From Nitrococcus mobilis Nb-231 (lineage in GTDB: Bacteria; Pseudomonadota; Gammaproteobacteria; Nitrococcales; Nitrococcaceae), in contig NZ_CH672427.1 of the NCBI RefSeq assembly GCF_000153205.1, positions 729,294 to 793,293 of the forward strand: a stretch of DNA of 64,000 nucleotides, written 5' to 3'. Of this stretch, positions 3,265 to 16,047 are shown in pieces. The position numbers were made by a program, and so were the translations under genes. The number at the start of each line of letters is the position of its first letter. Position 1 is the first letter of the stretch. The notes below the pieces were generated by a model. The model searched no databases. It saw only the letters and a list, made by a program, of their open reading frames with translations, and had not been told where the DNA came from.

Positions 3265-3702
3265 ATGAACAACAAGCTGCTGACTCTGATGGCCGGTGCC
3301 GCCTTGGTGGTCGGCGTGAGTGCCGCTCAGGCGGGCGAGCCGATGCAACTGGCGGGCGCTCAGATGGATGCGGTTACCGCTGGCACCAACGGCCCCTACT
3401 ACACCTACTTTCAGTTGGACTTGGTCGACGTCAATTTCGATACGACCAATAAGTTCAAGACCAAAATCACCTACGACCCAAACTTCGAGGGCAACTCGGC
3501 GGCGGCTGGCGCCAAGGGTGATGCGAGCAATCCATACGTGTTCCCCGTCGGAGTTGATCCGTGCGGGTGTGCATACATATATGGAAAAATTCCAACCGAG
3601 TCGTTCACCAAAGCGGACACTCTGGCGGTAACGGAATTTAACGGCGGCTCGTTCTCGTTCTCGAGCAGCGCGGCCGCGATCAAGGCAGTAGGAGGGCCTT
3701 AG
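3265..3702 (+). CDS. Sec-exported small protein with double-glycine-like motif (precursor 1)
   Basis: This protein has 145 residues. The ATG at 3265 follows CAGGAG by 8 bases and begins a clear signal peptide (MNNKLLTLMAGAALVVGVSA, cleavage near AQA at 23). Right after the cleavage site comes EPMQLAGAQMDAVTAG, ending at Gly40. The same pattern, L-x-x-x-Q-(M/L)-D-x-(V/A)-(T/S)-(A/G)-G, recurs in the three genes downstream. It resembles the recognition part of double-glycine leaders cut by C39 peptidases, but here it follows a Sec signal. The mature part is polar and aromatic near its start (TNGPYYTYFQ), with a GVDPCGCAYIYG centre holding two Cys and a Ser/Phe-rich end. The gene has its own terminator-like hairpin. 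I infer it is a substrate of the C39 peptidase at 6463. The mature function is unknown. Confidence 0.7.
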   Translation: MNNKLLTLMAGAALVVGVSAAQAGEPMQLAGAQMDAVTAGTNGPYYTYFQLDLVDVNFDTTNKFKTKITYDPNFEGNSAAAGAKGDASNPYVFPVGVDPCGCAYIYGKIPTESFTKADTLAVTEFNGGSFSFSSSAAAIKAVGGP

Positions 3703-3742
3703 TTGTAGTAACGGACGTAGCCGCATGCGCTTGAAGCCCTAT

Positions 3743-3768
3743 GAGCCCCATGCCTCGGCATGGGGCTC
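3743..3768 (+). terminator. probable rho-independent terminator
   Basis: A perfect 12-bp stem (GAGCCCCATGCC with GGCATGGGGCTC) with a very short loop is followed by a modest T-containing tail (CTTCTGTCT). It lies 40 bases after the stop of precursor 1. Confidence 0.6.
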
Positions 3769-4092
3769 CTTCTGTCTAACTATACCGAACTCACCGATGA
3801 GAGGCTCGGACCCGATTCGGTCCCCTGCACGTGCGGCGCGGCCACGGGCGTCGTGACGTCTAAGCCAGCTGATTCAGGTTAGGGCAACCAATGGCGGTAC
3901 CCCTCCTATCCAACTAAAAGAGGATAAAAATTAAAGCATCCATGCGCTAGGCTTTAAATGAGCCGTTTTCCCAATCAGCAATCATCGTAGTGAACAGAAT
4001 GGGAATTACGATCGTAGCTAACGCACCGGGTTTGCGCCCAAGCGTGCCGACTAAGGGTTTACGAATATAGGGAACACTTGGGGAACAACGCA
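3769..4092 (+). other. intergenic region, no gene seen
   Basis: A 320-base gap between the terminator of precursor 1 and precursor 2. No coding frame or RNA gene is visible. The AT-rich stretch around 3900-4000 is a likely promoter area for the next gene. Confidence 0.4.
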
Positions 4093-4458
4093 ATGAAAAA
4101 CACAAGTTTGGCCAGCATCGCCATGGGTTCGTTGATTTCTATTGCCCTAGCGGCGCCGGTCGGCGCCGCGGAGCCTTTGCGACTGACCGAGCCGCAAATG
4201 GATATGGCCACGGGCGCCGGTTTCAGCCTTCAGCTCAGCGCGGTCGCCATAGGCTCGGGGTTCGGTCATGCTACGGCAACCGCTACGGCAACCACCAGTA
4301 CGCAAGGCGCGCCACGGGTCGCGGCCTCGGGGTGGGTTAGTGGCGGCGACGGGTTGAAGGGTGTCGTCGACATTCAAATCCGAAGCGATGGCGCTCCTTT
4401 TAGCAGAACCTTCGCTATTCCGCCCGATTTTCCGTTCAATATTGTATTTACACGTTGA
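4093..4458 (+). CDS. Sec-exported small protein with double-glycine-like motif (precursor 2)
   Basis: This protein has 121 residues. The ATG at 4093 is preferred over an in-frame TTG 15 bases earlier because GGGGA is well spaced before it and it starts the signal peptide (MKNTSLASIAMGSLISIALA, cleavage near GAA at 26). EPLRLTEPQMDMATGAG follows immediately and ends at Gly43, matching the motif of precursors 1, 3 and 4. The mature part is low in charge and rich in Ala, Thr, Ser and Gly, with a short ATATATATT run. This is the composition of amyloid-like or surface-layer polypeptides, although length and sequence do not match FapB or FapC. It is probably exported, then trimmed after the motif. 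No known family recognised. Confidence 0.65.
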   Translation: MKNTSLASIAMGSLISIALAAPVGAAEPLRLTEPQMDMATGAGFSLQLSAVAIGSGFGHATATATATTSTQGAPRVAASGWVSGGDGLKGVVDIQIRSDGAPFSRTFAIPPDFPFNIVFTR

Positions 4459-4586
4459 CGCAATAGTTGCGTAGCGTGTGAAACAAGGATTATCGCCCAG
4501 TCACGGCATTGTGAAATCGGAAGAAAGGGTCTGCTTCTCCCGGCAAGGGTTTGCACAGAAAATTTTATTATGCCGGAATAGCTAAA

Positions 4587-5024
4587 ATGAAACGCACATA
4601 CCCGCATCTTGCTTTAAACTTTCTGGTGGCTACGACCGCGCTGGTAATCGCTGCGACCGGGTCAGGATCAGAACGGCTGACAAACCGGCAGCTCGATACG
4701 GTCAGCGCGGGCGACATCGGCGTAACCGCCACCGCGGTCGCCGTGGCAAGCGGGATTCCCACCTACACGTTGACCCAAACGATCGCGTCAGTCACGCGTT
4801 CCCCCTACGGCACGGTCGAGATGGGCCATGCCTGGGGGACGGCCTATGCCTGCTGCGGTCCGTATACGGACACCGAGGTCTCGACCGACGCTTATGCCGA
4901 TGGGGCGTTCGTGCTCGGTACCAGCGTCAACACCAAGACGTCCAATCAATATTCTTCCACGTCGGTTGGGAGCGAGTTCATCTATTCGTACAACCCATCT
5001 GGCTTAGATGCTCCAACACCCTAA
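4587..5024 (+). CDS. Sec-exported small protein with double-glycine-like motif (precursor 3)
   Basis: This protein has 145 residues. The ATG at 4587 is chosen because it opens a signal peptide (MKRTYPHLALNFLVATTALV); the in-frame start 36 bases earlier would add a non-signal extension. The ribosome site (GGAA) is weak. The motif SERLTNRQLDTVSAG ends at Gly42. The mature part is Thr/Ser/Ala/Val/Tyr-rich, with one vicinal cysteine pair in AYACCGPYTDTEVSTDAYAD and many alternating polar and beta-branched residues, suggesting beta-structure. The gene lies 128 bases after precursor 2 and 64 bases before precursor 4. I infer it is a substrate of the peptidase downstream. No family recognised. Confidence 0.65.
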   Translation: MKRTYPHLALNFLVATTALVIAATGSGSERLTNRQLDTVSAGDIGVTATAVAVASGIPTYTLTQTIASVTRSPYGTVEMGHAWGTAYACCGPYTDTEVSTDAYADGAFVLGTSVNTKTSNQYSSTSVGSEFIYSYNPSGLDAPTP

Positions 5025-5088
5025 AGAGGCGCCCCATGCATTGCATGAGGGCGTCCCCAGCAAAAAAGCGCACGATGGAGAAGGAATC

Positions 5089-5418
5089 ATGACAACAAAA
5101 GCAAAAACACAGGTCGTCCTTGGTGTGACCCTGTCATTGCCACTGCTGACCGCGCCCTTGCCCGCCGAGAGTGCGGCGAGCAGTCCACCAAGTCGGCTCA
5201 CGGACAACCAGCTCGATGCCGTGACGGGTGGACGCCACCCTATCGAATGTCTGTGTGGCGTAGATACCCCGCCGTGGGACGATTGGGAACATTTAAGGGA
5301 TCGATTGGCGGATCGCCTGCCCAAATGGCAGCCCAAACCGCGTGACCCCTGGTTGGTGACGACGATGGCACTGGGCGAGGAAGGGGGCGGGATCTCCCCG
5401 GTTTTTTGGAAACTTTAG
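5089..5418 (+). CDS. Sec-exported small protein with double-glycine motif (precursor 4)
   Basis: This protein has 109 residues. The ATG at 5089 has a good GGAGAAGGA ribosome site. A signal peptide (MTTKAKTQVVLGVTLSLPLL, cleavage near AES or SAA) is followed by SRLTDNQLDAVTGG ending at Gly48, the only one of the four with a true Gly-Gly. The predicted mature piece is about 61 residues and differs from the others. It is rich in Trp, Pro, Asp and Lys (WDDWEHLRDRLADRLPKWQP), with two Cys close together (ECLCG). It is the precursor nearest the ATP-grasp gene, 48 bases upstream, so it is the most likely partner if that enzyme modifies a peptide. Function unknown. Confidence 0.65.
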   Translation: MTTKAKTQVVLGVTLSLPLLTAPLPAESAASSPPSRLTDNQLDAVTGGRHPIECLCGVDTPPWDDWEHLRDRLADRLPKWQPKPRDPWLVTTMALGEEGGGISPVFWKL

Positions 5419-5466
5419 AAAACCTACCAGGCACAGCGTCGCGACCTCGGATGAGGGGACCACCCT

Positions 5467-6414
5467 ATGAGGTTGGATATCGCCATCATTGGCAGCCCCA
5501 AGGAGCCCGAAGTTGCCAAACTAACGGCCAATCTGGCGCAACGGGGCTATCCACCGCTTATCATTGATACTGCGGCGTTTCCGCAGCAGCACCATTTGAC
5601 CTTCGCTGATGGATCCTGGTGGTATCAAAAAATTAACTTGGCCGATGTAAAAGTTTTTTTTCTACGGAACCTTCACTGCAGCGAGTTGATGGAGAAGCTC
5701 GAGGGATCAGAACACCCGCAAAACATAGCGATTACGGCTTTGCGGGAAAAGGATTCGATGCTGGGCAGCTTGCTGCGATGGGCGGCTGAACAAGGCAAGC
5801 CGATCCTGAATCCGCTTGAGACACTACTATGCCATTATTATAAAATTGATACCCTCGAGCGGTTGCGGCAAGCCGGTGTGCCCGTCCCTCCAATGATAGC
5901 GACCAATGATGCAGATATTGTACGAGCATTTGCAAGAAACCATAAGCATATCGTCTGCAAACCGCTCGCGGGGGGAGGAATTGCAATAGGGCTTTCTGCC
6001 AATGGGATTTTAGAGGAATTCTATGCGCTATTAAAAATCGCCCCCGTTATGCTGCAGGCAAGGATTTATGGGCATGATATCCGCGCTTATATACTGAACA
6101 ATCAAGTGATTGCAGCCACATCGACCTGGAGCGCACAACTTGATTTTCGCGTCGGTGCACAGCACTTTGAGCCCACGGCCCTGACGCAAGCCGAGGCGAT
6201 CGGAATCATTCACGCCGCCCAACGCATGGCATTGCGGTTCGCTGGCATTGACTTCAAACGGACAGTCGACGGACAGTATTTCGTGCTTGATGTCAATCCC
6301 GCCCCCATGTTTGCGGGTTTTGAACAGATTACGGGACTCGAGATAACCGGCCCCATAGCCGAATATCTTGTGGCAATGCGCTCGCCCCCGAGCATACGCC
6401 CAGCTAGCCTGTGA
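5467..6414 (+). CDS. ATP-grasp enzyme, RimK-like ligase fold
   Basis: This protein has 315 residues, with an ATG preceded by GAGGGG. It has no signal peptide, so it is cytoplasmic. An N-terminal domain (1-110) is followed by the ATP-grasp part. VCKPLAGGGIAIG near 160-172 supplies the ATP-binding Lys and the Gly-rich loop. FKRTVDGQYFVLDVNPAPMF near 265-285 supplies the acidic and Asn metal ligands (D-x-N-P). ATP-grasp enzymes join a carboxylate, through an acyl phosphate, to an amine or other nucleophile. Relatives include RimK-type glutamate ligases and the macrocyclases of graspetide pathways. Its place between four exported precursors and a C39 peptidase suggests action on one of them before export, or synthesis of a small peptide that joins them. 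This is inference; the substrate cannot be read from the sequence. Confidence 0.75.
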   Translation: MRLDIAIIGSPKEPEVAKLTANLAQRGYPPLIIDTAAFPQQHHLTFADGSWWYQKINLADVKVFFLRNLHCSELMEKLEGSEHPQNIAITALREKDSMLGSLLRWAAEQGKPILNPLETLLCHYYKIDTLERLRQAGVPVPPMIATNDADIVRAFARNHKHIVCKPLAGGGIAIGLSANGILEEFYALLKIAPVMLQARIYGHDIRAYILNNQVIAATSTWSAQLDFRVGAQHFEPTALTQAEAIGIIHAAQRMALRFAGIDFKRTVDGQYFVLDVNPAPMFAGFEQITGLEITGPIAEYLVAMRSPPSIRPASL

Positions 6415-6462
6415 TATTGCCCTACCATCTGGGCGCCGCTGCAAGGCTACGGACCAACAGCC

Positions 6463-7122
6463 ATGTACCCGATACCCCACATGACTCGAAAGCGCTATTT
6501 TAGAATTGCCAACCCACACTGGACGATTATCTTCAGCCTTTTGCTCGGTCTGCTGGGATCGGCACAGGCTTCAGGGCGAGCACCAGTTACGTCGCTTCTG
6601 GAAATGCGCCGAGATCATGTAATAGTACAACAGTGGGATCTGAGTTGCGGTGCCGCCGCGCTTGCCACCATCTTGCGCTACCAGCACGGCGACCCCGTTC
6701 CGGAGCGGGAGATTGCCAAAGCATTGATGAAACGCAAGGAATATATAGCGAATCCTTTGCTTGTCCGAATACGTCAGGGTTTTTCCTTGCTCGACCTCAA
6801 GCGCTATGTGGATCAGCGGGGGTACGAGGGGATCGGCTACGGCAAACTCAAGTTGCAGGATCTGATCGAGCGAGCCCCGATCATGGTTCCGCTAAGCCTG
6901 CATGGCTATAATCACTTCGTGGTGTTCCGAGGCGTCCGTAGAAATCAGGTCCTGTTGGCAGATCCAGCCTGGGGGAACCGGACCATGGGGATAAAACGAT
7001 TCAAGCATGTCTGGATCAATTATCCCCAAATCGGCAAGGTCGGCTTCATCGTTGCCCACAAGGGCAGCAACGCGCCCGCCAATGGCCTTGCACCGCGCCC
7101 GCAGGATTTCATTATGTTCTGA
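6463..7122 (+). CDS. exported C39 family peptidase (FapD-like)
   Basis: This protein has 219 residues. After a basic N-terminus a hydrophobic segment (residues 20-36) acts as a signal peptide or membrane anchor, so the catalytic part faces the periplasm. The papain-like C39 residues are all present: Gln56 or Gln57 (oxyanion hole), Cys62 in DLSCGAAALATIL, His151 in GYNHFVVFRG, and Asp167 in LLADPAWG. C39 peptidases cut leader peptides after a double glycine. Most are fused to ABC exporters, but FapD of the Fap amyloid system is a free-standing periplasmic one of similar size. The four exported proteins upstream carry a matching double-glycine-like motif after their signal peptides, so they are the likely substrates. 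The gene follows the ATP-grasp gene by 48 bases and precedes the barrel gene by 204. Confidence 0.85.
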   Translation: MYPIPHMTRKRYFRIANPHWTIIFSLLLGLLGSAQASGRAPVTSLLEMRRDHVIVQQWDLSCGAAALATILRYQHGDPVPEREIAKALMKRKEYIANPLLVRIRQGFSLLDLKRYVDQRGYEGIGYGKLKLQDLIERAPIMVPLSLHGYNHFVVFRGVRRNQVLLADPAWGNRTMGIKRFKHVWINYPQIGKVGFIVAHKGSNAPANGLAPRPQDFIMF

Positions 7123-7326
7123 GTCACCAAAATTTCTGAGATGACCCACTGTTAACCAAACCGACTCAAACTATAGGCCGATTGTGGACATCTAAAATGA
7201 GCGAACTGATACCGGAATAGGGAACTTCAGCGCATCAGGGAAAGCATAAATAGTCGCGTATATCGGGTCATTGGGGCGAAAAGCGCACTAAGCACGACAC
7301 AAAAACTTAAGAATCGAGGGTACTTT

Positions 7327-8430
7327 ATGTCCCTGCTGCACCGGTGCACGCTCAATCTGGAGCGAAGCGTGGCTATGGTTGTCTTATTTTCCATAGCCGC
7401 GCCCGTCTTCGCTCACTCAAAGCTGAGCTCGACGATTCCCGACCGGCCTTCGAGAGTTGAGAAATTGCCGGCACTGGCCGAGGCAGCCGAGCCGCAATCC
7501 CCCACACAGCCACCCTCAGGGGCTCAAAATCAAGCGCACCCCGCGGCACCGGGCCAGTTCGAGGTTGATGAAGAAGCCGCGGAACGGGCGCTGGAGCGGA
7601 CGCTGGTCGTGCAAGGCGCACTGCTCCTTCCTTTTGGACTGGCCGAAATCCAGCCCAGCTTCAGCTATACGCGAAGCGAGCTGGATGACCAGAACTTAGC
7701 TCTCCAGCAGGGAACCCCGTTTCTCGTAGAACAAGATATCCGACGCAACACCTTTATCGGGGATCTGTTTTTCCGCTTTGGCCTGCCTTTCGACAGCCAA
7801 CTGGAATTCGGTATTCCTTACCAATACTTTGACAGCAAAGTGGTAACCGATTTCAGTGGCGGTGGCGTTGGACGTAACGAGGTCAGCGACTCCAGTTCAG
7901 GTTTCGGTGATTTCCGGGTAGGCCTTGCTAAGGGCTTGCTGCGCGAAGGTCTGTGGTGGCCAAACTTGATCGGTAGGGTGACCTGGAATACGGACACCGG
8001 TAAAACTAATGCCGCCAACCCGCTCGGCAACGGCTTCAATGAGCTTTCAGGGTCACTGACGGCCACTAAGCGCCAAGACCCACTGGTTTTCATCGGTAGC
8101 TTCACTTATACGACAAGCTTTGAGAAGAACGGCATCGATCCAGGCGACGCATTCAACTTCTCGGTGGGGGCGTTGCTAGCCGCGAGTCCAGAGACTTCAT
8201 TGCGCTTGACTATCAATCAATCATTCGTCGATAAGATAAAGGTGGACGGCCGGGCGTTCGACGGTTCGGATCGAGTGATCGCAAGCTTGGCATTCGGGGC
8301 GTCCTCGATCGTCGGGCACGGCAAATTCCTCGACTTAGCCGCAACGGCGGGACTTACGGATCAGGCTCCTGACTATTCAGTCACGCTCACTTTAGTTGTC
8401 CGTTTCGGACTCCCGAGCTTTTCGTTCTAA
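7327..8430 (+). CDS. outer-membrane beta-barrel protein, FapF-like or MetA-type transporter
   Basis: This protein has 367 residues. A signal peptide (cleavage near VFA at 29) is followed by a Pro/Gln-rich linker, then a charged helix near 77-100 (QFEVDEEAAERALERTLVVQ), then a barrel of alternating strands that ends in Phe (FGLPSFSF), the usual signal for barrel assembly. The layout of a periplasmic helix before a barrel matches FapF, the secretion pore of the Fap system; the barrel also resembles annotated 'transporter' proteins of the phenol-degradation MetA type. I infer it exports the processed precursors. A second copy with very similar sequence, including about 150 bases of upstream DNA, lies at 13336-15973 but is broken. 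The last 39 bases overlap the convergent regulator gene. Confidence 0.7.
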   Translation: MSLLHRCTLNLERSVAMVVLFSIAAPVFAHSKLSSTIPDRPSRVEKLPALAEAAEPQSPTQPPSGAQNQAHPAAPGQFEVDEEAAERALERTLVVQGALLLPFGLAEIQPSFSYTRSELDDQNLALQQGTPFLVEQDIRRNTFIGDLFFRFGLPFDSQLEFGIPYQYFDSKVVTDFSGGGVGRNEVSDSSSGFGDFRVGLAKGLLREGLWWPNLIGRVTWNTDTGKTNAANPLGNGFNELSGSLTATKRQDPLVFIGSFTYTTSFEKNGIDPGDAFNFSVGALLAASPETSLRLTINQSFVDKIKVDGRAFDGSDRVIASLAFGASSIVGHGKFLDLAATAGLTDQAPDYSVTLTLVVRFGLPSFSF

Positions 8431-9201
8431 TCCTTTTTTTTCATAAAGCCGATTGGCTAAAAATGCCGCATGCGTTCGGTTTATGGCTTTAAACTTTTTC
8501 ATGATTTGCCGGACGTGAACTTTAACCGTGCTCTCCTGCATTTTAAGCTCATAGGCTATTATTTTATTCGACTTACCTTCCCGTAGAAGCTGAAGCACCT
8601 CCGATTGCCGCGGCGTCAAGCCTTGCAGGAGGGTTGGAGCAAACATGCCGCTCTGTTCTTTAACCGACCGCTTCCCCTCAAAAGGCTCTAATAGTATGCT
8701 AGACGGAATAAATGAACCGCCAGCCTGGATGAGTCGCAGGGCTAGGATAACCACCTCTGGATTAAGCCCTGTTGAAATATAGCTGTGCACTCCAAGGCGA
8801 AGCGCTTTTAAAATACAATGAGGTTCTTCTCGCTCGGACAAGATGACCACGGGCACATCAACCAAGCCTTGCTTCAGCCGATCGATGTCATTACATACTG
8901 TTTCCTCGCTGACACAGCCTGAACCCACACTGAGGAGAATCAGCTTCACCGTAAAGCTGAGGCGACAGGACAAAAACTCATCGGCACTGGAAAAAGGCAG
9001 AATGATAAAATCTTCCGAGCGACGCTTAGCATGTGTGCTCGCCTCCAATAACTGGGTGACGGACATCCGCGTCAACGAGTGTGGATCGATGAGTACAACT
9101 CGGGGTTTATTCCCATCCGTATCATGATCTATTGCAATTTTATTACTTAAAAGCAGCTGAGCGCTGCGGTTGGAACTGTCTTCCGTTGAAGGGTATTCCA
9201 T
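8392..9201 (-). CDS. LuxR/NarL-type regulator with degenerate receiver domain
   Basis: This protein has 269 residues. The C-terminal part (about 190-250) is a LuxR helix-turn-helix: LTPRQSEVLQLLREGKSNKI, then STVKVHVRQIMKKFKAINRT. The N-terminal part (about 30-160) has the receiver fold, starting VVLIDPHSLTRMSV, but the strand that should carry the phosphate-accepting Asp reads LILLSVGSGC, with Ser at the expected place. The protein therefore probably does not signal by ordinary phosphorylation and may sense a ligand or act constitutively. It is convergent with the barrel gene (39-base overlap at the 3' ends), and its own upstream region is long and AT-rich. It may control the secretion locus; that is a guess from position. 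CsgD and VpsT, which control matrix production, belong to the same broad class. Confidence 0.8.
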   Translation of the reverse strand: MEYPSTEDSSNRSAQLLLSNKIAIDHDTDGNKPRVVLIDPHSLTRMSVTQLLEASTHAKRRSEDFIILPFSSADEFLSCRLSFTVKLILLSVGSGCVSEETVCNDIDRLKQGLVDVPVVILSEREEPHCILKALRLGVHSYISTGLNPEVVILALRLIQAGGSFIPSSILLEPFEGKRSVKEQSGMFAPTLLQGLTPRQSEVLQLLREGKSNKIIAYELKMQESTVKVHVRQIMKKFKAINRTHAAFLANRLYEKKGLERKARESETDN

Positions 9202-9852: not shown

Positions 9853-10608
9853 CTAGGGAGGCTCTGAACTATTCCCGGCCACGCCAGTATAATTGCGGCA
9901 TTGCCACCGACCCAGGCGGAACCGATGAAACAAACCACCTTTGCTTCGATGAGTTTTGCGGCCAAGAAGCGGCGCACGCGCCGGGAGAAGTTTCTCGCCG
10001 AGAGGGAGCAGGTGGTGCCTTGGGCAAAACTGGTGGCGCTCATTGAGCCGCACTACCCCAAGGCGGGCCGGCGTGGCCGCCCGCCGATGCCGCTTGAGTC
10101 GATGCTGCGTATTTATTTCATGCAGCAGTGGTACGCGCTCTCCGACCCGGCCATGGAGGATGCGCTCTATGAGATCGAGTCGATGCGCCGCTTCGCCGGG
10201 CTTGAGCTCATCGACGACGCGCTGCCCGACGAGACCACAATTTTGAAGTTTCGCCGCCTGCTGGAGCGCCACGGCCTGACTGCCCAGATGATGAACGTAA
10301 TCCACGACGTGCTCGCCGAGCGCGGGGCGCTGCTCAAGGGCGGCACTATGGTCGGTGCCACGATTGTGCACGCTCCGGCCTCGACGAAGAACAAGGCGCG
10401 CCGGCGCGACCCGCAGATGCACCAGACGCGGAAGGGCAATCAGTGGTATTTCGGCATGAAGATCCACGTGGGGGCCGATGTCAACAGCGGCCTTGCTCAC
10501 ACGGTTTCGGTGACTGCAGCCAACGCCTCGGACATCAGCCAATTGCCGCGCCTGCTGCGCGAGGACGACCGCGCGGTCTTTGGTGATAAGGGCTACGTCG
10601 ATAACACC

Positions 10609-12722
10609 CTTAACCCATCTTTAACGCTCTCTGCCTGATTTCGGGCTGATTTGGGCGTGTATGCGAAGAGAAGTTATTGATTCGTATAGTGGCGAGGGTG
10701 GCGCGCTGGATGTAGTGCCATAATATTTGTTGTTATCCCTTGTGCGGAGCGCCCGCCCACGCTAGCCTCGCGGGCATGTTCATCCGCCGCACCCAGACCC
10801 GCAGCACGGCCACCGGCGAGTCGTATGTCACGTATCGTCTGGTGCGCTCCGAGCGGCGCGCCGGTAAGGTCCGCCAGCGCACCCTGTTGAACCTGGGGCG
10901 GCACTTCCCAGTGGCGCAGGCACACTGGTCGGCGTTGTGTGCGCGCATCGAGCAACGGCTCAGCGGCCAGGCGGCGCTGTTCGACGAGGAGGGGAAGGGC
11001 CTCCCGCTCGCCGTCGAGCGCCAGGCCGAGCGTATTGCGGCGCGGCTGCTCGCCGAGCAGGGCGGTACGCCGGCACCGGCCGATGCTGGCGGTGTACCCG
11101 GCGGTGGGGGTGACGTGCAGTCGGTGGACGTGGACTCGCTCTCACTGGTGCGCCCGCGCTCGGTGGGCGTCGAGCAGCTCGCCCTGTGGGCGCTGCGCCA
11201 GGCGGGCTTGGAGGAGCAGCTCCAAGCGCTGGGGCTGACCGGCCCGCAACGTGCGGCGGCGCTGGGGCTGATCGTTGCCCGCATGGCCGCCCCGGGCTCG
11301 GAGCGGGCGACGTATCAGTGGCTCGCCCGGCGCAGCGGCCTCGGCGAGCTGCTGGAGGTGGACTTCGAGGCGATGAGCCCGATGCAGCTCTACCGTACCT
11401 CCGATATCCTGCTGCGCCACCGCGCGGTCCTCGAAGGCATCTGTTCGCCCGGGTGAGCGATCTGTTCGCGCTCGCCCGACAATCACGCTCTACGATCTGA
11501 CCAACACTTACTTCGAGGGCGAGGCACCGGTCAATCCGGCCGCGCGCCACGGCCACTCCAAGGAGCGGCGCAGCGACTGCCCGCTGCTCACCCTGGCGCT
11601 GGTGCTCGATGCCTGCGGCTTTGTGCGCCGCTCGCGGGTCTTCGCTGGCAATGCGGCCGAGGCGCAGACCCTCCAGGGGATGCTCACCGGCCTCGCGGCG
11701 CCCGCCGGCGCGCTTGTGGTCATGGACCGCGGGGTGGCCACCGAGGCCAACCTCGCCTGGCTGGCCGAGCAGGGCTACCGCTATCTGGTGGTCAGCCGCG
11801 AGCGCCGCCGCGCGGTCGATTTTAAAGAGGCCATCACCCTCGACAACGCCGGCGGGCAGGCCGTGGAGCTACTCAAAGTGCCCTCGGCCGATGGCCAGGG
11901 GGTGCGCCTGTATTGTCGCTCCGAGGGCCGCGTGCGCAAGGAGCAAGCGATCGCCGGACGCCTGATGGACCGCTTCGAGGCTGGGCTCGACAAGCTTGCG
12001 ACCGGACTCAGCCGGCGGGGCACCACCAAGCGCATCGACAAGCTCTGGGAGCGCATCGGGCGGCTCAAGGAGAAAAGCCGCGGCCTCGGCCAGCACTACC
12101 ACATTGAAGTGATCGCCGGTGACAGCGGCGAGCGCGCCCGTGCGATCCACTGGCAGCGCCTGCCCGTGAAAGGCTCTCTGGTCACCGAGCCGGGCGTCTA
12201 TTGCCTGCGCAGCAACGAGACCGGCTGGGACGAGAAGACAATGTGGCGCACCTACATCATGCTCACCGACCTTGAGGCGGTCTTCCGAAGCCTGAAATCG
12301 GAGCTCGGCCTGCGCCCGATCTTCCATCACAAGGAAGAGCGCGCCGAGGGGCACCTGTTCATCACCGTGCTCGCCTATCAGTTCGTCCAGCTCATCCGCC
12401 ACTGCCTCGCCGCCCACGGCATCTGCGAGCGTTGGAGCACGCTACGCGATACCCTCGCCGGCCAGTGCCGGGTCACCGCCACGTTCAACCGCGGCGATGG
12501 CCGCACCCTGCACGTGCGCAAGGCCACCCGCGCCGAGCCCGATCAGGCGCGAATCTATCAGGCCCTCGGGGCCGATCCCGCCCCGGGCGGCGTGCAGAAA
12601 ACAATCGTGTGAGCCCGCTGATTTATAAAATGAACGTAATGTAGTGCCACTCGCCGCCGCGGCCGATCTTAACTCTCTGAGTATCGCGAAGTTATTTTTG
12701 GGGACGTTAAACTTGGGTTAAG
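10609..12722 (+). mobile_element. IS1634-like element inserted in the IS5-type transposase
   Basis: Ends show the inverted repeat CTTAACCCATCTTTAACGCTC (left, 10609-10629; first 20 bases decisive) and GACGTTAAACTTGGGTTAAG (right, 12703-12722), agreeing in the CTTAACCCA and TTTAACG blocks. The element is about 2.1 kb, normal for IS1634 relatives. The exact ends and the target duplication are uncertain by a few bases; the flanks suggest an AT-rich duplication around ATAA. Confidence 0.7.
10776..12612 (+). pseudogene. IS1634-family transposase, frameshifted
   Basis: The frame starting at 10776 (MFIRRTQTRSTATGESYVTY) encodes the N-terminal part and stops at 11456. The sequence continues in a second frame through LFARVSDLFALAR at about 11435-11475, then in a third frame from TITLYDLTNTYFEG to the stop at 12612. 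So two small indels lie within about 40 bases. Conserved IS1634/IS4-like pieces are visible: the YDLTNTYFEG first-Asp region, VVMDRGVATEANLAWL for the second Asp, and a long C-terminal part with YIMLTDLEAVFRSLKSELGL containing the Glu. The full product would be about 610 residues. Inactive unless frameshifting restores it. Confidence 0.8.
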
Positions 12723-13719
12723 CGCGCGGCGCGCCGGGCGGGTGTCTACTGGGGCGTGTCCTTGAAGGCAAGCTCCAAGCACAAACTCACCGGTGCGAAC
12801 AAGCGCACCAACCGCAAGCGCTCCTCGGTCCGTGCCCGGGTGGAGCACATTTTCCGGGTGATCAAGCGCCAATTCGGTTACACCAAGGTCGCTACAAGGG
12901 GCTTGCCAAGAACGCCGCACAGGTGTTCACGCTGATCGGCCTGACGAATCTGTATCTGGTGAGGAGGCAACTGATGACGAGCTGACAGGCAAACTCCGCC
13001 TGCTTGCTCCGAAAAGGGGTTCAGCGGCGTCAAACGGCCCCGTAAATCAGCACTCGGCGGCGGGAAACCGAGCATTTTTACCCTTCCTCTCGTCAGAGAC
13101 GAATGCGTTTGACTTCAGCTCGAATAGTTCAGACGTTCCCTAGGATTTCGCAGCCGAGCCATTGTTATCCAAATCGATCCAGCCACAGACTGATACGGAC
13201 ATCAAAATGAGCAAGCCAATGCCGGAATAGAAAGCTGCAGCACTTCAAATGAAGCATTAGTAATTGTGTATCGGCTCACCGGGGTGCAAAGCGCGCCAAA
13301 TACGACACAAAAGCCTTAAAAATTGAGAGTACTTTATGTCCCTGCTGCATCGGCGCACGCTCAAACTGAAGCGAAGCGTGGCCATGATTGCCGTTTTTTC
13401 CATGGCTACCCCCGCCCTTGCTCACTCGAAGCTAAGCTCGACGACTCCCGGCTGGCCTCCGAGAAATGAGAAATTACCGGCACTGGCCACGGCAGCCGAA
13501 CCGCAATCCTCCACACAGCCGCCCCCAGCGGCTCACAATCAAGCGCATCCCACAGCATCGGGCCAGTTCCAGGTTGATGAAGAAGCCGCCGAGCGGGCGC
13601 TGGAGCGGACGCTGGTCGTGCAAGGCGCACTGCTCCTTCCTTTTGGACTGGCCGAAATTCAGCCCAGCTTCAGCTATACGCGAAGCGAGCTGGATGAGCT
13701 GAATCTAGCCCTAATACTG

Positions 13720-15105
13720 CTACCTTAACGAATTCGTTGGCCGACGGATGGCTTGGCACGCCGCATGGCGGGGCCTGGTGAGCAAGGGATAGGGCTTAGG
13801 GCGTCGTTTGACTGCACGGGGTTGTGGCAGGCGTTTTTGCCGGCCTATTGGGGACAACGCCATCGCCTGCAGCAATGCGGTGGCAAAAGCTTGCAGTGCC
13901 TTTCCAGACAGTAGCAACAGCTGGGAGGCGGCGTTGTTGAGCAATTGTAGCGCCGATTTGAAGCTGAGTTGGCGCGGGATTTTCTCGAAGCACTGCGCGG
14001 CTCGGTTCAAGTTGGCGCGCACGAGATTGTAGGCCAACAAATGAGCCGCGATCTCTTTTCTGACCCGCTCTGGGCTCTTGCAGCGCAGCCGCTCCATGGC
14101 CATATCGGTTTTGATGCTGCGCAGATCCAACTCGATCGTCCAGCGTGAGCGGTAGTGCTCGGCCAGGGCGCGGCGGGGGTAGCGTTTGGGGTTCGATAGG
14201 GTGGTGACGTAGACGATGCCGTTGACTGCCAGCTCGCGAATGGTCAGCGTCGGCGGCAGCTTGAGGTAGTCTTGTGCGCTCATCCACACGGGCTTGCGGG
14301 GCGGCTTGGCCCATTTAATGAGATGATCCTTGGCGCCGAGTCGCTCGCCGCGGTGCCAATGCGGCTTTCGCTGGGCATGCTTTTGAAAGAGCCCCTGCAC
14401 CCCGTGGTGGACCAGCAACGCCATGATCGCGTAGGTGCAGTAGTAGCGGTCGGCGAGTAGCAGGTCGCCCGGCTGCAGGGTGTGCAGGAGGGTGCTGAAC
14501 AAAGAGCTCTCTCCGCTGCCCTTGCCCTGATAAGGGCCGAGGGCATAATCGAGCACAGCACCCGCGCCGAGCGAAATCAGGGCCACGATGCGCACGATGG
14601 GAAACCCGAGGCCGGGTTGTTGGTTGCCCTGTTGGGGGAACTCACGCTGATTATCGAGCGTATCGGGCATCAGTGCGGTAGTGCCATCGGCGAGCACCAC
14701 GCGATGGCCACGCCAACCCCAGGCTGAAGGCGCGCGTTGGTGCAGCGTCTGTCCGCTCTCCCGGACCGCGTTCTCCAAGGGCGCACGGGGCAGGCGTTGG
14801 CGGGCTTTGCAATACGGCCCGGTGTTGATGGAATTGGCGCTTTGGCCGCTTTGCAGCCGCTCGGACAGCACCCGCGCCACCGCGTGTTTGCACGAACCGT
14901 CCTGACTGAGCACCTGGAAGAGGAAGGCTTTCAATACCACCAAGGGGGTGAATATCCGATCACGCCCGCCGCACGCGCGTTCGGCGAACTGGCTCAACAC
15001 ACGGGTGGATAAAACATCGAAAAACGGCAGTCCGCGCACTTGTAGGAAGGACCTCTTCAAGCGCTGGATTTGCCATGAGCGGGCGCAGCGAATAGAGTTT
15101 TTCAT
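13720..15105 (-). CDS. IS4-family transposase
   Basis: This protein has 461 residues and is intact. DDE-type features are visible: VVLADGTTALMPDT carries the first Asp, LQPGDLLLADRYYCTYAIM the second, and LAEHYRSRWTIELDLRSIKT matches the Y-(2)-R-(3)-E-(6)-K signature with the catalytic Glu. The stop lies 11 bases from the inner side of the left end. A long inverted repeat just upstream of the start (15108-15180) could form a hairpin that limits translation of read-through transcripts. Confidence 0.9.
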   Translation of the reverse strand: MKNSIRCARSWQIQRLKRSFLQVRGLPFFDVLSTRVLSQFAERACGGRDRIFTPLVVLKAFLFQVLSQDGSCKHAVARVLSERLQSGQSANSINTGPYCKARQRLPRAPLENAVRESGQTLHQRAPSAWGWRGHRVVLADGTTALMPDTLDNQREFPQQGNQQPGLGFPIVRIVALISLGAGAVLDYALGPYQGKGSGESSLFSTLLHTLQPGDLLLADRYYCTYAIMALLVHHGVQGLFQKHAQRKPHWHRGERLGAKDHLIKWAKPPRKPVWMSAQDYLKLPPTLTIRELAVNGIVYVTTLSNPKRYPRRALAEHYRSRWTIELDLRSIKTDMAMERLRCKSPERVRKEIAAHLLAYNLVRANLNRAAQCFEKIPRQLSFKSALQLLNNAASQLLLLSGKALQAFATALLQAMALSPIGRQKRLPQPRAVKRRPKPYPLLTRPRHAACQAIRRPTNSLR

Positions 15106-15180: not shown

Positions 15181-16047
15181 TTAATAATCACACAACTTCA
15201 TGATCAATATACAATTGTGGTCGTTAAGGTAGCAGTATTAGAATCTAGCCCTCCAACAAGGAACCCCGGTTCTCGTAGAACAAGACGTACGGCGCAACAT
15301 TCTTATCGGGGATCTGTTTCTCCGCATTGGTCTGCCTTTCGACAGCCAGGTGGAATTCGGTATTCCTTATCAATACATCGACAGTAAAGTAGTAACCGAA
15401 ATCAGTGGCATTGGGCCTAATGAGGTCAGCGATTCCAGTTCAAGTTTCGGTGATTTTCGGCTTGGCTTAGCTAAGGCCTTGCTGCGCGAAGGCCTGTGGT
15501 GGCCAAACTTGATTGGTAGGGTGACATGGGATACGGACACCGGTAAAACCAATACCGCCAACCCACTCGGCAGCGGCTTCAATGAGCTGTCAGGGTCATT
15601 GACGGCTACCAAGCGCCAAGATCCCCTGGTTTTCATCGGCAGCCTGTCTTATACGACACGCTTTGAGAAAAACGGCATCGACCCAGGCGACGAACTCGGC
15701 TTTTCGGTGGGGGCGCTCTTGGCCGCTAGCCCAGAGACTTCACTGCGTTTGATTATCAATCAATCATTCGTCGATAAGATAAAGGTGGACGGACGGGCGA
15801 TCGACGGTACGGATCGAGTGATCGCCAGCTTGGGGTTCGGCGCCTCCTCGATCGTTGGCCACGGCAAATTTCTCGATTTTTCCGCAACGGCGGGCCTCAC
15901 GGATCAGGCACCTGATTATTCAGTCGGGGTTACCTTAGTTGTCCGTTTCGATGTCCCGAATCTCTCGTTCTAGCTCTGAGGTAGCACCGCTTCGTGGCCA
16001 CCTGATGCACTGAATTTGATCGCGTGGCAAACTTTCATGTATCACAA

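Follow-up and report, generated by a model that had tools for sequence, protein, structure and literature searches.

A Nitrococcus mobilis locus with Sec-type signals and double-glycine leaders beside a predicted periplasmic C39 peptidase and a FapF-homologous barrel

The current analysis concerns a run of seven genes in a stretch of 64,000 nucleotides of Nitrococcus mobilis Nb-231 (assembly GCF_000153205.1, contig NZ_CH672427.1, positions 729,294 to 793,293), referred to below as the window. The closest described systems are the Fap functional-amyloid system of Pseudomonas, the putative Fil pilus system of Acinetobacter, the C39 peptidases PCAT1, ComA and LahT with the double-glycine (GG) leader bacteriocins, and the graspetides of microviridin and marinostatin type. 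FapD acts in the periplasm, its active-site cysteine is needed for the secretion of FapC, and FapF is the pore for FapB, FapC and FapE (PMC5557850). In the available portions of that paper the Fap proteins are described as lacking canonical C39 sequences. The substrate of FapD is called undetermined, and the enzyme is said to recognise, perhaps, an alternative sequence (PMC5557850, PMC6173800). Colocalised homologues of fapD and fapF have been reported in five further phyla outside full Fap operons (PMC6173800). FilA is the subunit of the Fil pilus (PMC11784438). Leaders recognised by C39 peptidases have the consensus L(-12)xxxE(-8)L(-7)xxxxG(-2)G(-1) with -4 as a specificity position, and the docking positions on the leader used below are taken from the same source (PMC6959990). 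Graspetides and their GG motifs are surveyed in PMC8939145, the available text of which contains no Sec-exported precursors.

The N. mobilis locus encodes four small precursors, an ATP-grasp enzyme, a stand-alone C39 peptidase and a barrel homologous to FapF. On the basis of the sequences it is probable that the peptidase cuts GG leaders after Sec export and that the barrel then carries the mature proteins out. A literature search (titles, beginnings of abstracts and open-licence PMC text) found no description of Sec signals followed by GG leaders in the neighbourhood of a periplasmic C39 peptidase, and the arrangement is not described in the available portions of PMC5557850, PMC6173800, PMC8939145 or PMC11784438. 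What is new relative to the literature found is a predicted, genome-readable substrate signature for such peptidases.

Leaders, peptidase and barrel of the locus

All four precursors have a hydrophobic signal followed within few residues by L-x-x-x-Q-(M/L)-D-x-(V/A)-(T/S)-(A/G)-(G/A), which can be numbered L(-12)xxxQ(-8)M/L(-7)DxV/A(-4)xA/G(-2)G/A(-1). Hydrophobicity and small-x-small sites served as the criteria for a signal. The GG-leader consensus L(-12), L/M(-7), G/A(-2), G/A(-1) is present in all four and in 118 open reading frames (ORFs) of related loci. An earlier note, made from the letters of this stretch, had reported the motif directly after the signal in four genes; this is borne out for all four, except that precursor 2 ends in GA and therefore departs from the (A/G)G ending given there. 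When the motif is written as a degenerate DNA pattern, the 3.62-Mb host genome contains 4 matches, three of them in precursors 1, 3 and 4, and none when the pattern is run backwards; the occurrence of the motif in its own genome exceeds chance. The fourth match, about 43 kb upstream of the locus, lies in another signal-bearing precursor. This lone precursor (L062 5344-5718; G000:C1 about 689.4 kb) carries LTAPQMDTATAG and is likely to be a further substrate in trans.

The C39 enzyme has 219 residues (192-306 in its relatives, as opened) in a single domain with no fused ABC transporter. Residues Q56, C62, H151 and D167 are kept in all 48 aligned C39 proteins, and 46 of the 48 pass a test of N-terminal hydrophobicity, the two that fail (L024, L026) being hydrophobic by eye. 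A profile search of the PDB at E 0.001 returned the LahT double-glycine protease as the sole match (E 7.2e-7), and the predicted fold (mean predicted local distance difference test, pLDDT, 75.6) is closest to the peptidase domains of PCAT1, ComA and LahT. By modelled fold and active site the window enzyme is a double-glycine peptidase, and it is predicted from its sequence to be located in the periplasm. The intact Cys/His/Asp triad and the own export signal proposed earlier are in agreement with the 48 of 48 conserved residues and the hydrophobic N-terminus. The leader consensus, C39 fold and active site are shared with PCAT1, ComA, LahT and the GG-leader bacteriocins; the differences are that the window enzyme is free of a transporter and has its own hydrophobic N-terminus, and that the leader follows a Sec-type signal.

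The barrel was compared with known structures in two ways. With a profile of nine barrel homologues, FapF is the sole PDB match at E up to 1 (lowest E 2.8e-17), and in a Foldseek search with the predicted structure (mean pLDDT 75.3; residues 12-72 unreliable) ranks 1-18 are FapF chains, with template modelling scores by target of 0.76-0.83. The FapF-like barrel of the earlier note is thus supported by sequence profile and by predicted fold. The score of 33.6 against 700 bits for the NCBIfam FapF equivalog makes it a homologue and not an equivalog. A helix (residues 82-95) precedes the barrel, and a conserved VDEEAAERALERTL segment there appears to occupy the place of the FapF plug. Pfam names the barrel PF13557, and the next fold match after FapF is the COG4313 channel 4rl8. 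Both are consistent with another reading, according to which the GG leader would be cleaved off in the periplasm as a propeptide, the mature proteins would remain in that compartment or exit otherwise, and the barrel would serve uptake or lipid transport, like channels of the COG4313/PF13557 kind. We regard it as quite improbable in view of the eighteen leading FapF matches, the putative plug helix and the recurrence of the barrel in related loci, as described below.

Recurrence of the gene set and of the motif

Using a C39 profile of 22 rows in overlapping sets of 398, 59 and 12 genomes, relatives score either 290-387 bits or at most 135 bits; searches at E up to 1e-50 add weaker members with 176-221 bits. 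The close set comprises the window and 47 loci, of which 9 came from a contig scan with a single-protein query (16 loci returned) and 38 were fetched later. In a FastTree phylogeny with midpoint root the 48 C39 proteins of this set form one clade (local support 0.963), and none of 28 Fil/Fap-type C39 proteins falls inside it.

Precursors in the 47 loci were sought by a script requiring a hydrophobic stretch and then the motif, with the reversed motif as control. The search gave 118 ORFs in 39 loci, 116 of them on the strand of the C39 gene and 115 within 4 kb; the reversed motif gave none. One further ORF (L040, 14626) was excluded before counting as it has no D(-6). Among the 118 leaders M/L is found at -7 in 118, D at -6 in 118, V/I at -4 in 115 and L at -12 in 115, most of these positions being restricted by the search pattern itself. 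The motif starts 2-5 residues past the last small-x-small site in 101 of the 118. A barrel matching that of the window is present in 43 of the 47 loci within the stretches fetched, and in three of the others (L008, L029, L058) the contig ends less than 400 bases from the C39 gene. The gene set recurs across dozens of bacterial genomes, with precursors, C39 peptidase and barrel as its core.

A related arrangement has been identified in loci of the FilB/FapD type. In 11 of 28 of them the gene directly after the C39 gene, at +598 to +854 bases from midpoint to midpoint, encodes a signal followed by a leader ending in GG, usually RGG. A twelfth match, in L081, is 5.4 kb away. With the motif reversed there are 5 scattered matches, and nothing comparable was found in the other 17 loci. 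The combination of Sec signal and GG leader next to a C39 peptidase of periplasmic type therefore exists in at least two forms. One of the 11 is a second C39 locus of the N. mobilis genome itself (L063 4494-7453; G000:C1 about 1.839 Mb), where the FapD/FilB-type C39 gene is followed by that of a signal-bearing protein with the leader IDHDQMAQLRGG and where a weakly similar barrel is encoded.

The co-occurrence of motif and peptidase was analysed in three sets totalling 706 genomes, on each of which both the C39 profile and the strict DNA motif CARATGGAYNNNGTNWSNGCNGG were run. The C39 search scored 7-13 first-look candidates per genome and its list is limited to E up to 1e-50; some C39-negative calls may therefore be misses. 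In the order of L007 (251 genomes) 19 genomes have the C39, 17 the motif and 15 both (p 1e-18). The corresponding numbers are 13, 9 and 9 in the family of L010 (245 genomes; p 9e-14) and 13, 3 and 1 in the order of L012 (210 genomes). When pooled, the motif is found in 25 of 45 C39-positive and 4 of 661 C39-negative genomes (2x2 counts 25, 20, 4, 657; Fisher p 9.6e-30, a value that overstates independence because the genomes are related). The backwards pattern occurs in 3, 2 and 0 genomes of the 251, 245 and 210, none of them C39-positive. The search that the earlier note had proposed, for the motif after a signal near a free-standing C39 gene in other genomes, has thus revealed co-occurrence, the absence of which the note had named as a refutation, while an ATP-grasp gene adjoins the pair in only 3 of 48 loci.

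Motif matches distant from a C39 gene were also inspected. Three motif-positive, C39-negative genomes (G596, G919, G922) have no ORF with signal and motif in the stretch fetched. Two genomes with C39 and barrel and no adjoining precursor, G591 and G592, have 4 and 5 copies of the motif elsewhere; small signal-bearing ORFs hold all five copies in G592 and two of the four in G591, the other two lying less than 60 bases from a contig end. Hence the leader tag appears to work in trans. The scattered precursors of these two genomes (L086, L088, L090, L091, L092) belong to one family (ALLGLDSLLGST...).

Cargo, ATP-grasp enzyme and neighbouring genes

The mature parts in related loci have 41-183 residues, are often of low complexity and are rich in Ala, Ser, Gly and Thr (pooled 14.7, 12.1, 11.1 and 9.9 percent). 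Cargo families include precursor-3-like proteins, NxSPVTxVQ...SGN forms (L050-L055) and AxAxA-rich forms. The four mature parts of the window had been called unrelated, which holds within the window, where no cross-match is seen at E 1e-3; precursors 1, 2 and 3 do have relatives elsewhere that align beyond the leader. These are a protein 81% identical to precursor 1 in L004, relatives of precursor 2 in L004 and L005, and relatives of precursor 3 in L004, L005 (two), L008 and L011. Precursor 4 has 5 database homologues. The cargo had been proposed to be modified surface peptides, toxins or fibres. Among the Pfam and NCBIfam matches to nine window proteins there is no toxin family, and the toxin reading was rejected on this ground. 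Fibre-like surface proteins are the likeliest cargo, and the four precursors of the window may be of this kind.

A divergent Fap functional-amyloid operon, in which the precursors would be amyloid subunits replacing FapB, FapC and FapE beside FapD and FapF, has to be weighed at this point. A Q.G..N.A core like that of the curlin repeat is found in 5 of the 118 mature parts (shuffle mean 0.26, maximum 2). Two of ten relatives tested match the Pfam family Curlin_rpt, both below the cut-off (E 0.0041 and 0.24), and Pfam finds no curlin repeats in the four precursors of the window. The five cores and the match with E 0.0041 favour the amyloid operon, as do the homology of the barrel to FapF and the relation of the C39 enzyme to FapD and FilB. 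On the other hand, the spacing Q-x4-N-x5-Q is not enriched in the 118 mature parts (1 versus 0.94 in shuffles), and NCBIfam gives the four precursors of the window no match to a Fap subunit at E up to 1, as the earlier note had said of FapA, FapB, FapC and FapE. The C39 enzyme scores 88.4 of 330 bits against FapD and 101.1 of 475 bits against FilB, both below the cut-offs, and every precursor carries the canonical C39 sequence that is lacking in the Fap proteins as described in the parts of PMC5557850 available. An amyloid operon of this type is therefore unlikely.

Membership in Fap or Fil was rejected on the same NCBIfam scores. With Fap the locus shares small Sec-exported substrates, a free-standing C39 enzyme with export signal and a FapF-homologous barrel. 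It differs in that the GG leader of the substrates is canonical, that none of them is recognised as FapA, FapB, FapC or FapE, that loci of the window type hold several divergent cargos, and that the C39 forms its own clade, with C39 and barrel below the NCBIfam cut-offs. The FapD/FapF-like logic which the earlier note took as the nearest known is upheld, yet this is not a Fap operon because no Fap subunit is matched and both proteins are far below the cut-offs. Fil likewise has a related C39; there a single protein bears the leader, which ends in RGG, whereas the window locus has several with QMDxVTAG.

The ATP-grasp enzyme adjoins the C39 gene in the window and in its closest relatives, L004 and L005, out of 48 loci, and precursor 4 directly precedes it in all three. 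Its best subfamily is the peptide maturase TIGR04187 (75.9 of 350 bits), followed by MvdC (44.6 of 425) and MvdD (37.3 of 475), all below the cut-offs. It has 22 close homologues (45-92% identity), after which identity drops to about 30%. Matching of contigs among the best 120 C39 relatives suggests linkage to C39 for 9 of the 22; two of the nine apparently share a contig, so that two copies per locus may occur in places. L049 has a match of 29% identity on the strand opposite to the C39 gene, which was taken as unrelated. With 3 of 48 loci the enzyme was rejected as a core component and cannot be called built in, as had been claimed; it is an accessory that probably modifies a precursor in the cytoplasm.

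The maturase matches, the GG leaders and the small size of the precursors could also point to a cluster for ribosomally synthesised and post-translationally modified peptides (RiPPs), of microcin or peptide-antibiotic type, with graspetide-like crosslinks made by the ATP-grasp enzyme and the GG leader as the usual RiPP leader. An ATP-grasp of the same broad group beside a GG-leader precursor is indeed shared with the graspetides. The maturase scores are however far below the cut-offs, the enzyme is an accessory of few loci, no graspetide core is recognised, the seven genes include no ABC exporter, and mature parts reach 183 residues and are often of low complexity. This explanation is accordingly considered highly unlikely.

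The seven genes (Table 1) all have the same direction and are separated by gaps of 390, 128, 64, 48, 48 and 204 bases; the gene positions given earlier have all been confirmed from ORFs and translations. By its position the convergent NarL/LuxR-type gene is a possible regulator of the locus, and relatives of it, some weak, were found by blastp in 8 of the 47 loci.

Table 1. Genes of the N. mobilis locus and the adjoining regulator, in window positions
Feature	Positions	Strand	Remarks
Precursor 1 (145 residues)	3265..3702	+	Sec-type signal; GG leader LAGAQMDAVTAG at 3349-3384; mature part TNGPYY...
Precursor 2 (121 residues)	4093..4458	+	Sec-type signal; leader LTEPQMDMATGA at 4183-4218, ending GA
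Precursor 3 (145 residues)	4587..5024	+	Sec-type signal; leader LTNRQLDTVSAG at 4677-4712
Precursor 4 (109 residues)	5089..5418	+	Sec-type signal; leader LTDNQLDAVTGG at 5197-5232; CLCG in mature part
RimK/graspetide-type ATP-grasp enzyme	5467..6414	+	Without export signal; PF08443 42.7 bits, cut-off 21
Stand-alone C39 double-glycine peptidase	6463..7122	+	Hydrophobic N-terminus; PF03412 54.7 bits
FapF-homologous outer-membrane barrel	7327..8430	+	PDB profile, Foldseek
NarL/LuxR-type response regulator, convergent	8392..9201	-	PF00196 65.5 bits

Just upstream of the precursors (1951-2694) lies the gene of a protein with a signal, which matches PEP-CTERM below the threshold (17.3 bits against a cut-off of 20.7). 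The barrel gene has a second copy in two pieces (13336-13713 and 15242-15970; 80% and 84% identical), interrupted by an insertion sequence whose transposase ORF lies at 13720-15105, and more transposase-like ORFs, named by eye, lie between both copies (9901-12612). The region from about 25863 to 63683 encodes, as read by eye, large nonribosomal peptide synthetases, a TonB-type receptor, an exporter, dioxygenases and an acylase-like protein, and looks like a siderophore cluster. No tRNA genes and no Rfam families at gathering threshold were found across the 64-kb window.

Proposed export route and its significance

The spacing of the motif, its place after a Sec-type signal and its co-occurrence with the C39 clade make periplasmic processing followed by exit through a FapF-like channel the best reading. 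Sec export and cutting by signal peptidase would leave a GG leader of about 16 residues, as judged from its position in the sequence. By analogy with known C39 enzymes, the peptidase would then bind the leader through positions -12, -7 and -4 and cut behind the -2/-1 pair. The unfolded mature part, rich in Ala, Ser, Gly and Thr, would leave through the FapF-like channel and give rise to surface material, probably fibre-like. With the leader as a portable tag, mature sequences would be free to diverge, and precursor genes need not adjoin the locus. In the clade of the window the cytoplasmic ATP-grasp enzyme probably modifies one precursor before export, most likely precursor 4; this is the weakest step. 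In its core this is the order put forward in the earlier note, whose periplasmic processing after Sec export is retained as the best reading. Its phrase of a possible new secretion system goes too far for the locus as a whole, since fapD and fapF homologues that lie together outside full Fap operons have already been reported (PMC6173800).

Several observations weigh against Sec export, periplasmic processing and exit through the barrel. No pattern match was found in 8 of the 47 loci (L028, L030, L046-L049, L059, L060); two of these (L047, L049) have, by eye, a signal followed by LSAAQMDQVVAG which the pattern overlooked, and L046, L059 and L060 showed no visible precursor on inspection. L041 has no barrel within the 18.5 kb fetched, and of 42 barrels clustered 31 are on the strand of the C39 gene and 11 on the opposite one. 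The strict motif is lacking in 20 of the 45 C39-positive genomes, partly because leaders vary. Taken alone, the order of L012 shows no significant association (1 of 13 versus 2 of 197, p 0.18); the strict motif undercounts there because it requires Q at -8, where leaders of this order often have E. A broader pattern that accepts E at -8 was searched for in 80 of the 210 genomes of the order (13 C39-positive, 2 C39-negative with earlier matches and 65 others). It is present in 7 of the 13 positive genomes and in 3 of the 67 negative ones; of these three, two had been included for their earlier matches. Run backwards, it occurs in 2 of 80, one of them C39-positive (G863). G606 is a real exception, where two genuine precursors are encoded but neither C39 nor barrel was found within 12 kb; both precursors lie at L085 5665-6330 and are either orphan substrates or accompanied by an overlooked enzyme. 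Curlin-like cores are confined to 5 of 118 mature parts and occur in none of the four precursors of the window. A crosslinked precursor would need to stay compatible with Sec, which is a difficulty. The gene set, the motif, its co-occurrence with the peptidase and the homologies are established here; cleavage, export, modification and the fibre nature of the cargo are inferred from sequence.

A broader proposal, to which we give an even chance, is that of a separate secretion route of Gram-negative bacteria in which the GG leader serves as a second, portable tag in the periplasm. Many unrelated proteins would arrive there by Sec, a free C39 peptidase would recognise and remove the tag, and a FapF-type channel would take the proteins out. 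Fap and Fil would be specialised offshoots of this route, and the clade of the window would add an ATP-grasp enzyme that decorates a surface peptide ahead of its export. A portable two-tag export signal could also serve protein display. The findings suggest that a leader known from the cytoplasm is reused after Sec export. Periplasmic C39 peptidases have so far been without a defined substrate. The predicted substrates of the present clade can be read from the genome by a short motif; cleavage is therefore directly testable, and a class of surface proteins becomes predictable.

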